Shown piece after piece: positions 61,248 through 64,000 of a stretch of DNA of 64,000 nt. The number at the start of each line of letters is the position of its first letter. Position 1 is the stretch's first letter. The DNA is from Pseudodesulfovibrio portus (GTDB taxonomy: Bacteria; Desulfobacterota; Desulfovibrionia; Desulfovibrionales; Desulfovibrionaceae): the NCBI RefSeq assembly GCF_026000375.1, contig NZ_AP026708.1, forward strand, positions 1,738,501-1,802,500, in the 5' to 3' direction. The notes beneath the pieces are model-generated. The model had not been told where the DNA came from. It ran no database searches and saw nothing but the letters and a program-made list of their open reading frames with translations. A program made the translations under genes and the position numbers.

Positions 61248-61901
61248 CTACTTGACGCTCCTGACCACGGCCCCTTTCTCGCGGTCCGGGACCAACTCGT
61301 AGATGCGGTCCGCGCTGCCCGCGAACAGGTCCAGGGGGTGGTGGCTGATGATCAGCAACTGAAGTTTCAGGCGGCGGGCGATCTCGTTGATGAGCTGCAT
61401 GAATTTCGGGATGAGCGCGGGCCGGAGCCAGCAATCCTGCTCGTCCAGCACCAGGAAGGGCCGGTGGCGTTCCTCGGGCAGTTGGGAAAGGGCGATGAGC
61501 CGCAGCCCCACGGACAGGATGTTGCAGACCGATCCGCCCTGGCCGGACATGATGTCCTCGATCTCCTCCTCCCTGCCCTGGTTGCGGATCTGGAAATGGA
61601 TCTGAAGCCGGTTGGACTTGACCTCGCGTTCGGTGACCACCACCCGGTCCTGGCCCAATATCTCGCGAATGGCGTGGGTCAGGTTGGCCTCCACCTCGTC
61701 CAGGATCTTGCCGAACAGGGCGGTGGACAGCTCCTCGAGCCTGTCCCGGGCCTTGGGCGCGAGTACCAGGAACTCCTCCGCATCCGCAAGCTTGGCGCGC
61801 ACGCGACTGTGCTCGGAATGCAGCCCTTCGGCCAGGGCCGAGAGCCTGTGGCAACGTCTCTCGATGAGGCGCAGGGTTTCCCGCTCTTCGTGCAGGGACA
61901 C
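61248..61901 (-). CDS. Rad50/SbcC-like ATPase, C-terminal (Walker B) half
   Basis: A 217-residue protein. A short helical head (about 1-80) leads to an ABC-type ATPase lobe. It has a signature-like SGQGGSVCNILSVGLRLIAL, Walker B LVLDEQDCWLRPALI and the switch His in LLIISHHPLDLFAG. There is no Walker A, so it cannot bind ATP alone and needs the N-terminal half. It starts with GTG directly after the TAG of the 106-residue coil gene, in the same frame, with GGAGG eight bases upstream. In Rad50/SbcC these parts are one chain. Confidence 0.85.
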   Translation of the reverse strand: MSLHEERETLRLIERRCHRLSALAEGLHSEHSRVRAKLADAEEFLVLAPKARDRLEELSTALFGKILDEVEANLTHAIREILGQDRVVVTEREVKSNRLQIHFQIRNQGREEEIEDIMSGQGGSVCNILSVGLRLIALSQLPEERHRPFLVLDEQDCWLRPALIPKFMQLINEIARRLKLQLLIISHHPLDLFAGSADRIYELVPDREKGAVVRSVK

Positions 61902-62222
61902 CTACTCGCCCTCCACCCCGTTCTCGACCTTGGCCAGGTCGGCCTGGATGGTGGTGATGTGCTCGCGGTATCCGGCGACCATCTCCTCGTTCTGCCGTCG
62001 CTTTTGTTCAAGCAACGCTTGAAGTTCTTCCATGTCGCTGGTGCCGTACTCGGCCTCTGCCTGGCGCTTGAGCGATTCGAGCTGCTCGGTCAGGTTGGCC
62101 ACGTCCTGCTCGGTGCGGACCTTGCGGTCGCGCAACTGCTCGTACTGCTGCCTGAGTTCGTTCAACTCCCGCTCGACCAGGTTGTCCCGGGCCGCATCGG
62201 CCTGATTGGCTTGATTATTCAC
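61902..62222 (-). CDS. Coiled-coil protein, probable return coil of the split Rad50
   Basis: A 106-residue protein made almost entirely of charged heptads (ERELNELRQQYEQLRDRKVR, EDVANLTEQLESLKRQAEAE). It starts with GTG, with AGGAGG nine bases upstream, and overlaps the nuclease gene by eight bases. It ends in TAG, and the Walker B gene continues in the same frame. A single stop codon therefore divides what would be one 324-codon coil-plus-ATPase frame. Alternatives are two separate subunits, a nonsense mutation, or stop-codon read-through. Confidence 0.75.
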   Translation of the reverse strand: MNNQANQADAARDNLVERELNELRQQYEQLRDRKVRTEQDVANLTEQLESLKRQAEAEYGTSDMEELQALLEQKRRQNEEMVAGYREHITTIQADLAKVENGVEGE

Positions 62223-63174
62223 TGCGTGTGACCTCCTCGTACAGTCCCCAGATCAACTTGCCCTCCGGGGTCTTTTTGCTCAGATTCTCTTCCAGGAACT
62301 GCCTCAGCCCGGTGCCCTCGCGGGTGCGCTGCCAGGCCAGCCGCTCCAGTCCCTTGATGAAATTGGATTCCCCGTCCACTTCCTGCTCCTCGGGCGGCAG
62401 GTCCTGATCCGGGAAGACCTCGGTAAACGGCAGGTACGGCACCACCCACGTTTCCAGCTCCTCGCAGCCCGGTGTCCAGATGGCGGCAGCGGGTTCGCGG
62501 ACCATGGACCGTCGGGTGAAGGTCAGCCGGGTGATGTTGCCGGGATTGGCCCAGGTCGTCTGCCCCTTGACCACGGTGGGCTGGGGCCGGTGGATGTGGC
62601 CGTTGATGAGCCAGTCGATGCCGGGCAGTTCGCGGATGGAATAGGCGCGTTCCTCGAACTCAGGAAATTGTATGTTGTGGTGGGTCAGCCAGACCACGGT
62701 GTCCGGATCGCCCTCCGCGCGCTCGTACCCTTTGGGCAGGGGCACGCCGTCCGGGCTGGCGCAGACCAGGACCTCTCCGTCCGGGGTGTCCAGGATGAAC
62801 TGCGGGCCGTCCTCCTTCATGAGAATGACCGCGTTTGCGGTCTCCAGCACCGCAAGGGACACGTCGTCCGTAAACCGGGACTGGTACTTGTCGTGGTTGC
62901 CGACCAGCACCCGGACCTTTGCGTCGCCGGTGCGGGAGCCGAACAGCCGGATCAGATCCACAAGCATCTTGTTGGAGTTGTCGCGGGGCCAGTGGAACAG
63001 GTCGCCGAGGATGACCGGGACCATGCCCAACGCATCGGCGCGGTCCAGGCAGGCAGTCAGTTTGCTCATGATCTGATCAATATATCCGTCCAGCCGCTGT
63101 CCCGGCGGAGTGTCCGCCAGATGCGGGTCTGCGACCATGAAGAGTCCGTTTCCGCGCACGTGATCAAGAGTCAT
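62215..63174 (-). CDS. Mre11/SbcD-like metallophosphoesterase
   Basis: A 319-residue nuclease-like protein. It contains the five phosphoesterase motifs: ADPHLAD, ILGDLFHWPRD, LVGNHDKYQS, WLTHHNIQ and INGHIHRPQ. The two-metal site therefore looks intact. A C-terminal capping part (about 235-319) would contact the ATPase coil. In Mre11/SbcD it cleaves DNA ends with Rad50/SbcC. The ATG at 63174 overlaps the upstream gene by 11 bases. It is placed between the two halves of the ATPase, which is unusual. Confidence 0.9.
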   Translation of the reverse strand: MTLDHVRGNGLFMVADPHLADTPPGQRLDGYIDQIMSKLTACLDRADALGMVPVILGDLFHWPRDNSNKMLVDLIRLFGSRTGDAKVRVLVGNHDKYQSRFTDDVSLAVLETANAVILMKEDGPQFILDTPDGEVLVCASPDGVPLPKGYERAEGDPDTVVWLTHHNIQFPEFEERAYSIRELPGIDWLINGHIHRPQPTVVKGQTTWANPGNITRLTFTRRSMVREPAAAIWTPGCEELETWVVPYLPFTEVFPDQDLPPEEQEVDGESNFIKGLERLAWQRTREGTGLRQFLEENLSKKTPEGKLIWGLYEEVTRSE

Positions 63175-64000
63175 GGCACCCCCCGTGATCAAGGAATTCG
63201 GCGGCGGTCATGTCCCGCCCGCAGGTGGGGCAGCGGCCAAGCTCGTCGATCCTCGCGGTGAGCTGTTCCACAATGTTCCGCAAATCCGTCTCCAAACCCG
63301 AAAGGGATGTTTCCTGCGTCCGAATCCGGCCCGTCAGGTCGGCCATCCGGGCCAACAGCGAACGCAGCCCTTCCCCTGATTCGAGGACCGGCGGCTCAAT
63401 CACACCTCGCAGGACACCGTGCCAGCGACCGAGGCGGGCACCCCGGTATTGCAGGGCGATGTATTCGTCCAGCAACCCGGAAAGCCCGGCGGTCTTCTCC
63501 GGCTCGGGCGGGGCGAACAGATCGGCCAAGGCCCCGGCCTGGGCCTCCACCCTGCGCAGGGTGCGGTCCGTCGAAAACAGCGTATCCGCCAACCGGGCCA
63601 GGGAGGGCGCGTCTTCGGTCCTTGGCGGTGATTCAAGAGGCTGGAGCGCGCCGGACGCGCCCTGCGCCGTGCCAAGTTGCCGGGCCGCACGGTCCAGCAG
63701 GGTCAGGGTTTCGGCCAATTCCCGGGTCTCGGACGGTTGCGGCGGGGCCGACGCCTTTTCGAGCACAGTGGCCGCCATCCCTCTGGCCTTCAAGGTTCCT
63801 GCCAGGTTCCTGCCCTGCGCCAGCACCCCTTCCAGGGCAGGGATTTCCCGCTCGTAACGGATCGTCTCGGTCTCCATTTCGCGGGCCGCTTCGATCTTCA
63901 ACTCCAGCGACGGCAAAGACTCCAGGCAATCCAGTTCCCTTTCGATCCGCCCGAGATCGGCGCTCAGCGCCTCGCTCTCCCGCTTGCGGTCCCGGACCTG
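63164..64000 (-). CDS. Rad50/SbcC-like protein, N-terminal half ending at zinc hook (5' end outside window)
   Basis: The frame is open to base 64000, so the start is not seen. The visible 278 residues are mostly charged coil (for example LKIEAAREMETETIRYEREI). It ends with RIDELGRCPTCGRDMTAAEF and a 14-residue tail. CPTC (codons at 63221-63232) matches the CxxC zinc hook at the tip of Rad50/SbcC coils. The polypeptide stops just past the hook and has no return coil. Walker A should lie upstream of the window and cannot be checked here. Confidence 0.8.
   Translation of the reverse strand, partial: QVRDRKRESEALSADLGRIERELDCLESLPSLELKIEAAREMETETIRYEREIPALEGVLAQGRNLAGTLKARGMAATVLEKASAPPQPSETRELAETLTLLDRAARQLGTAQGASGALQPLESPPRTEDAPSLARLADTLFSTDRTLRRVEAQAGALADLFAPPEPEKTAGLSGLLDEYIALQYRGARLGRWHGVLRGVIEPPVLESGEGLRSLLARMADLTGRIRTQETSLSGLETDLRNIVEQLTARIDELGRCPTCGRDMTAAEFLDHGGCHDS

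Follow-up and report, generated by a model that had tools for sequence, protein, structure and literature searches.

Rad50, like the structural maintenance of chromosomes (SMC) proteins, is viewed as a chain that ascends along one arm, reverses direction at a hook or hinge and descends again; YhaO is the phosphoesterase partner of the PF13514-type protein YhaN. Published accounts describe SbcCD as an ATP-dependent endo- and exonuclease acting at DNA ends (PMC6265447), zinc hooks as a stable dimerisation module (PMC6969161), fusion proteins of Mre11 and Rad50 with homologs on plasmids and phages (Yoshida et al. 2011, PMC3175470), and the Lamassu protein LmuB as a short Rad50-like ATPase, many examples of which carry a CPxCG hook (PMC10586767). 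Here, we describe a four-gene locus of Pseudodesulfovibrio portus at the end of a 64,000-nucleotide stretch (the window; positions 1,738,501 to 1,802,500 of NZ_AP026708.1, the single contig of the 3.40-Mb genome) that encodes an Mre11-like protein and a Rad50-like ATPase laid out over three open reading frames (ORFs). We consider it probable that these genes specify a housekeeping Mre11-Rad50 machine of the SbcCD type for DNA-end processing, in which Rad50 is made as three proteins.

The four genes lie on the minus strand in the order RadN, Mre11, coil, RadC, where RadN and RadC are labels coined here for the Walker A half and the signature/Walker B half of Rad50. RadN (63164..64510; 4665-6011 in L002, our extension of the locus past the window end) starts at an ATG and is 448 amino acids (aa) long; the window holds its C-terminal 278 residues (63164..64000), with the arm and the zinc hook, and the Walker A lobe lies beyond the window end. 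The predicted Mre11/SbcD-like nuclease (62215..63174) has 319 aa from an ATG at 63174, a start that relatives favor over a TTG at 63192 that would give 325 aa. The coil protein (61902..62222) has 106 aa, and RadC (61248..61901) has 217 aa, its GTG start abutting the coil's TAG stop in the same frame. With the ATG start, RadN and Mre11 overlap by 11 bases, Mre11 and coil by 8, and coil and RadC adjoin exactly, all as read in an initial annotation of this DNA; its proposal that four ORFs encode an Mre11-Rad50 whose ATPase is interrupted at the hook is likewise borne out by the lobes, motifs and gene order.

This arrangement is conserved. We fetched 40 loci besides L002, 39 of them from the 65 other genomes of the family that carry the set and one from G003, a genome of another family with a lone Mre11; the family set used below comprises the 40 loci with RadN (the 39 and L002), with RadC inside the fetched stretch at 38. 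RadN, Mre11 and coil occur in the same order at all 40, with RadC downstream on the same strand at 38 and no decay, extending to other Desulfovibrionaceae an order that the initial annotation had proposed to look for there. RadN and Mre11 overlap at 36 of the 40 loci and Mre11 and coil at 39, and the coil/RadC junction (38 loci) is an overlap in 17, a gap of 0-30 bp in 13 and one of 94-2624 bp in 8, five of which place RadC 0.85-2.6 kb away. In G116 and G089 RadC is encoded on the other strand, and in G036 and G123 its gene sits on a separate contig. Given this scatter, with RadC more than 30 bp from coil at 8 of 38 loci and on another strand or contig in four genomes, the earlier suggestion that coupling sets dosage is doubtful. 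The neighborhood, its upstream side included, is also kept: in the flanks covered, genes that we take to be MurJ and a TrmN6-like methyltransferase lie near 25 and 29, respectively, of the 40 other loci. Outside the family, the four genes are adjacent in the window's order at 19 of 21 distinct loci (L138 and L139, from the same genomes as L110 and L109, counted once), including Desulfacinum, Sumerlaeia and Planctomycetota records; at the remaining two (L150, L151) RadN is on another contig, where in G270 its second matched piece is interrupted by a stop.

RadN carries the first ATPase lobe. Past position 64000 its N terminus (MIKKVTIDNFMAH...GPNNTGKS) supplies the P-loop absent from the window, with Walker A (GPNNTGKS) at residues 29-36. 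Pfam recognizes AAA_23 (6.6e-11). In the PDB, the first ~42 positions of a RadN profile built from 26 sequences match SMC6 best (2.5e-8) and Rad50 N-lobes next (4e-6 at best), and a separate region matches zinc-hook chains of Rad50, namely 6zff (2e-4, 368-437) and 1l8d (9.5e-4, 382-437). A broad N-lobe profile (A6, 32 sequences) again places SMC6 best (9.4e-14) and Rad50 next (9.7e-11), and G29, G34, K35 and Q134, the last a likely Q-loop residue, are invariant in all 32 sequences. In every family RadN (40/40), Walker A reads GxNNxGKS and a single CPxC stands 14-31 residues before the C-terminal end; in P. portus this is CPTC (63221..63232), 18 residues before the C-terminus. Among outgroup RadN proteins, 18 of 19 carry a CxxC at a distance of 15-28 residues from the C-terminal end; the one without any CxxC, from a Planctomycetota metagenome-assembled genome (MAG; L113:3670-5940), is also the longest RadN, at 754 aa.

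Between lobe and hook, RadN is built of tandem 39-residue repeats. In P. portus they occupy 63278..63745, with PP pairs at residues 256, 295, 334 and 373. Self-comparison over 59 RadN proteins peaks at lag 39 (score 0.29; lags 15-69 average -0.69 with s.d. 0.17), 129 of 163 PP spacings measure 38-40 residues (79 exactly 39), and the last PP stands 54-55 residues from the hook in 43 of the 59 and 93-94 in 7. We judged a match of the arm to the repeat protein YopM (1.8e-5) to be a composition effect of the repeats. RadN length varies from 404 to 754 aa, clustering near steps of 39, with a coefficient of variation of 0.14 vs 0.05 for coil, 0.05 for RadC and 0.02 for Mre11. It is uncorrelated with RadC length (rho -0.05) and negatively correlated with coil length (rho -0.43, n 57, a sign that may be created by our measuring outgroup lengths from profile match to ORF end, which shortens outgroup coils). 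Because the arm lengthens without its supposed partner lengthening, it is not a simple antiparallel pair with a returning coil as in canonical Rad50. From this pattern, each module would be one helix, the arm may fold on itself or pair with another RadN, and the coil protein and the root helix of RadC would pack on a fixed part of it.

RadC carries the second lobe. After ~60 N-terminal residues that are probably helical, it has the features of a Rad50 C-lobe: the signature GQGGS, Walker B LVLDE and H-loop ISHH are present in 38 of 38 family RadC proteins, and in P. portus the signature (61530..61544), Walker B (61440..61454) and SHH (61338..61346) are each invariant across the 25 aligned sequences. 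Walker A occurs in none of the 38 family RadC proteins and none of the 40 family coils. A broad RadC profile (A5, 34 sequences) finds the Rad50 C-terminal chains 3qkr_B (2.7e-8), 1ii8_B, 1us8_B and 1f2t_B as its best PDB matches, entries in which the C-terminal segment is a chain apart from the N-lobe chain; a family-only profile finds just one SMC head (0.0043). The matches of these profiles to Rad50 N-lobe, hook and C-terminal chains show that the split-Rad50 assignment is not chance. Pfam has no family over its cut-off on the P. portus RadC, SMC_N and AAA_15 match 2 and 1, respectively, of the 34 broad-set sequences at E <= 1e-3, and none of the best 120 of 2013 RadC homologs has a precomputed Pfam domain. 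Genome G086 has a second, partial RadC match (C3:305730-305975, 73.9 bits) with two in-frame stops, probably a remnant copy.

The coil protein, found at all 40 family loci, may form a helical hairpin, as its central YGTSDxxEL suggests. It contains no cysteine at any of the 40 family loci or in any outgroup coil (4 of 13 plasmid and phage relatives have one), and the first 55 residues of RadC are cysteine-free in 35 of 38, the P. portus RadC having one. The idea that the zinc hook joins the two coils does not survive these counts in this family; since the family coil lacks cysteine, the CPxC of RadN would have to pair with another CPxC, RadN with RadN. In Mre11, Pfam recognizes Metallophos (2.8e-7), the Mre11 profile (A2) finds Thermotoga maritima Mre11/SbcD in the PDB (1.2e-4), and named close matches of the protein are Pseudodesulfovibrio and other Desulfovibrionaceae records. 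The metal motifs DxH, GDxF, GNHD, HH and GHxH are present in 40 of 40 family proteins, four of which read DVH or DAH instead of DPH. When the C-terminal Rad50-binding helices were looked for, the profile aligned to known Mre11 over positions 12-222 only.

The distribution of the set suggests what it may replace. An Mre11 profile was positive in 68 of 199 genomes of the order; we left G003 (a lone Mre11 relative) and G070 (only a weak match, E 8.6e-4) out of the exclusivity counts, and the remaining 66, all of one family, are exactly those matched by a RadC profile. All 25 same-genus genomes among those listed are positive, P. portus included, and the listed negatives include members of the same family; over the phylum, the Mre11 profile at E <= 1e-10 was positive in 19 of 395 genomes, 15 of which do not belong to the family. 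SbcD (TIGR00619, E <= 1e-3, positive in 13 of 14 control genomes) is found in 8 of the 66 genomes with the split set vs 118 of the 133 others (Fisher p 3.8e-27), and YhaN (PF13514, E <= 1e-10, positive in only 2 of 14 controls and hence not general) in 0 of 66 vs 94 of 133 (p 2.4e-25), p-values that overstate the evidence because of the ancestry shared among the genomes left in. A complete Rad50/SbcC elsewhere and a RadN without Walker A would together have undone the initial annotation, yet besides the Walker A of RadN, the P. portus genome gave no TIGR00619 match at E <= 1 (all 14 controls positive, 8 over the cut-off), a best TIGR00618 (SbcC) score of 13.8 bits against a cut-off of 478.5, and no YhaN-type AAA_27 (PF13514) match at E <= 1e-10. 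We propose that in these genomes the split set may take the place of YhaN/YhaO-type or SbcCD complexes. The Mre11 relative of G003 (L041:4115-5035) sits in a YhaN-bearing genome in which RadN, coil and RadC are absent by tblastn and RadN and RadC by profile.

The same parts are wired differently on plasmids and phages. A RadC profile matches 21 of 72,556 plasmid records. We opened ten such plasmid loci and profiled nine (L154-L159, L176-L178), the tenth, L160 from Methylorubrum, standing outside the analysis. All nine read coil - RadC·RadN - Mre11, a circularly permuted Rad50 with the RadC lobe first and the RadN lobe second in one large ORF that ends with a CxxC 7-18 residues from its C-terminal end in eight and 58 in L159. 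The upstream coil-like ORF matches at E 2.6e-17 to 2.1e-7 in eight and 0.012 in L154, and L155 has a small ORF between it and the permuted gene. The downstream Mre11-like ORF matches at E <1e-46 in four and 4.8e-13 to 2e-4 in five; by pattern search, at least three and up to all five of the metal motifs are missing from these five (L154, L155, L156, L158, L177), and GDxF from that of L176. The five motif-poor partners hint at ATPase complexes without nuclease activity.

In Geobacillus, Jeotgalibacillus, Paenibacillus and Brevibacillus plasmids, Mre11 is fused to RadN (801-851 aa), followed by coil and then RadC, the latter not found in the Jeotgalibacillus stretch. Cetobacterium plasmid p3 (L174) has RadN as two overlapping ORFs, then coil, RadC, a gene for the RNA-guided endonuclease IscB (iscB), and Mre11. 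Bacillus phage vB_BboS-125 (L180) has RadN, an AP2 ORF, coil, RadC, one further ORF and then Mre11, this last (L180:4424-5404, 326 aa, E 1.6e-37) lying in an annotation gap and completing the split set. An uncultured 485-kb phage deposited without annotation (LR745208; L179 is LR745208.1 446000-460000) keeps the window's order, RadN, Mre11, coil (2.5e-6), RadC, over 8.3 kb. Because loci L172-L175 went into the coil_bac profile used here, its matches there arise by construction, as does the one in L180, which is the same phage as L172; those in L179, L181 and L182 are independent. A RadC scan of viral contigs found no relative. We rejected Microbacterium phage Magritte (L161) as a four-gene set: only RadC matches in 5.9 kb, gene 1 is not a coil, and gene 4 resembles, by eye, a clamp-loader ATPase. 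Its stand-alone RadC-like protein (L161:284-934), with no RadN or coil in the record's first 5.9 kb, is annotated as an exonuclease.

We propose that RadN supplies the Walker A lobe plus a repeat arm whose free C-terminal end bears the zinc hook, that RadC adds a short root helix and the lobe with the signature and Walker B, and that the two lobes would co-fold into one ATP-binding cassette (ABC) head, with the ~105-aa coil protein packing on the arm or the root. A single zinc would clasp two RadN chains at the arm tip, and ATP would close two heads and so gate an Mre11 dimer, by analogy with SbcCD. The permuted RadC·RadN chain, which ties the lobes at the head end and leaves the hook end open, fits such a composite head. 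Of the two roles offered by the initial annotation, end processing is favored over defense: a role in repair is most likely, since the set is present in all listed genus genomes with its neighbor genes kept, has no PADLOC match among the five neighboring proteins scanned and never occurs with YhaN. Several observations weigh against this proposal. The exclusivity counts are uncorrected for shared ancestry, and in G115 a full SbcD (216 bits) coexists with the split set. No RadN was found in G123, whose Mre11 is near a contig start, and one outgroup RadN of 19 has no hook motif. The arm varies in length while coil and RadC are nearly constant, and the loss of metal motifs in permuted-locus partners means that nuclease activity is not universal.

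A broader proposal, which we advance only tentatively, is that these genes form a separate major lineage of SMC-like ATPases whose Rad50 is always broken after the hook. In that lineage, a parallel pair of repeat-rod RadN chains would be zinc-clasped at their free C-termini, the head would be completed in trans, coil would act as an exchangeable clip or regulator, and the fusions would be alternative wirings of the same quaternary structure.

It is unlikely, though less so than the other alternatives, that the set is a plasmid or phage replication-recombination module resembling T4 gp46/47, acquired by this lineage and now serving replication-associated recombination instead of general break repair. 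The four-gene order of the 485-kb phage and the related sets of a Bacillus phage and large plasmids, with plasmid and phage sets near helicase, RecQ, RecJ or topoisomerase genes, speak for such an origin. In an unrooted two-lobe tree of 32 loci and 374 columns, however, a branch supported at 100 separates the family loci and the outgroup species-level genome loci from the permuted, phage and Bacillota forms, the permuted forms grouping with support 86. The genome loci also span Desulfobacterota, Sumerlaeia and Planctomycetota, so the split set is not recent there, with the proviso that MAG contigs may be plasmids.

We regard as improbable an anti-phage or anti-plasmid complex of the Lamassu, Gabija or DndD kind built on a Rad50-like ATPase. 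RadN does match the defense models LmuB (1.2e-11, residues 2-436), AriA, AbiLi and GajA, RadC matches the mad3 model (1.2e-7), and relatives are present on plasmids and phages. But, LmuB apart, the listed defense matches of RadN extend over no more than roughly its first 50-70 residues, which form the P-loop region common to such ATPases, and a PADLOC scan of five neighboring proteins gave no match at E <= 1e-3. The set also keeps a conserved locus in all 25 listed same-genus genomes and is never alongside YhaN in the 199 genomes.

Finally, we looked for a one-piece form with the joined RadN, coil and RadC chain as query, among proteins of 0.55-1.75 times its length. Of 7999 candidates scored, 138 proteins passed E <= 1e-20; none of the best 120 covers more than 60% of the query, and 119 of those 120 are 437-492 aa long. 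P0133, from a eukaryote transcriptome and probably a bacterial contaminant, has 750 aa with PF09719, PF12675 and RadN domains; the first two are those of the gene upstream of RadN, so P0133 is that gene joined to RadN. The gene in question, directly upstream of RadN in P. portus (L002:6015-6920, window position 64514 onward), encodes 301 aa with C_GCAxxG_C_C (PF09719) and DUF3795 (PF12675), and a homolog lies upstream at 21 of the 40 other loci. That the locus is a decayed or frameshifted one-piece SbcC, or that coil and RadC are rejoined by stop read-through or frameshifting as their in-frame TAG-GTG junction in the window might invite, is highly improbable, and we reject such a fusion, since the split ORFs are intact, coil and RadC share a frame at only 8 of 30 loci with a gap under 60 bp (22 are in another frame), and RadC elsewhere lies 0.85-2.6 kb away, on the opposite strand or on another contig.

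If Rad50 is indeed divided in this way, a chain cut at the turn and kept by selection in chromosomes, plasmids and phages, even when permuted, implies that the covalent return path of Rad50 is dispensable. The variants would offer a natural test bed for asking through which links (head, arm or hook) the ATP-driven signal reaches Mre11, and their short, separately mutable parts should be useful for biochemistry. The assignment would also put a name to an end-processing complex for genomes that the SbcC, SbcD and YhaN models leave blank. It would likewise give a function to RadC, none of whose 120 best-matched homologs has a precomputed Pfam domain.

Compared with Mre11-Rad50/SbcCD of Escherichia coli and Pyrococcus furiosus, the split set shares the Mre11 metal motifs (incomplete in five of nine permuted plasmid relatives), gene adjacency, the Rad50 Walker A, Q-loop, signature, Walker B and H-loop, and the CPxC hook, a CxxC with predicted zinc binding being present in 40 of 40 family RadN proteins, 18 of 19 outgroup ones and 9 of 9 permuted ones. 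It differs in that the two lobes are not joined in one polypeptide through coil, hook and coil; in the window Rad50 occupies three ORFs, broken just past the hook, which stands near a free C-terminus, with a 39-residue repeat arm and a separate coil protein. YhaN, also a Rad50-like ATPase, is a single open frame, mostly of more than 1,000 aa. Our literature search found nothing on point for a split, two-gene or permuted Rad50/SbcC, most subscription papers and bioRxiv having been outside it, so that absence from print is not shown. The Bacillota plasmids resemble the published Mre11/Rad50 fusions (PMC3175470) in joining Mre11 to the N-lobe; the available text of that paper, unlike our loci, presents neither a C-lobe detached from the rest nor a separate coil or a permuted arrangement, and its main text does not use the word 'split'. 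Lamassu differs as well, its LmuB being matched by RadN at E 1.2e-11 at best and none of the five neighboring proteins matching PADLOC. The set also resembles the two-chain Rad50 structures (PDB 1f2t, 1f2u, 3qkr), in which N-lobe and C-lobe form the head as separate chains; those we take to be laboratory constructs, cut by experimenters and not encoded as such by natural genes.

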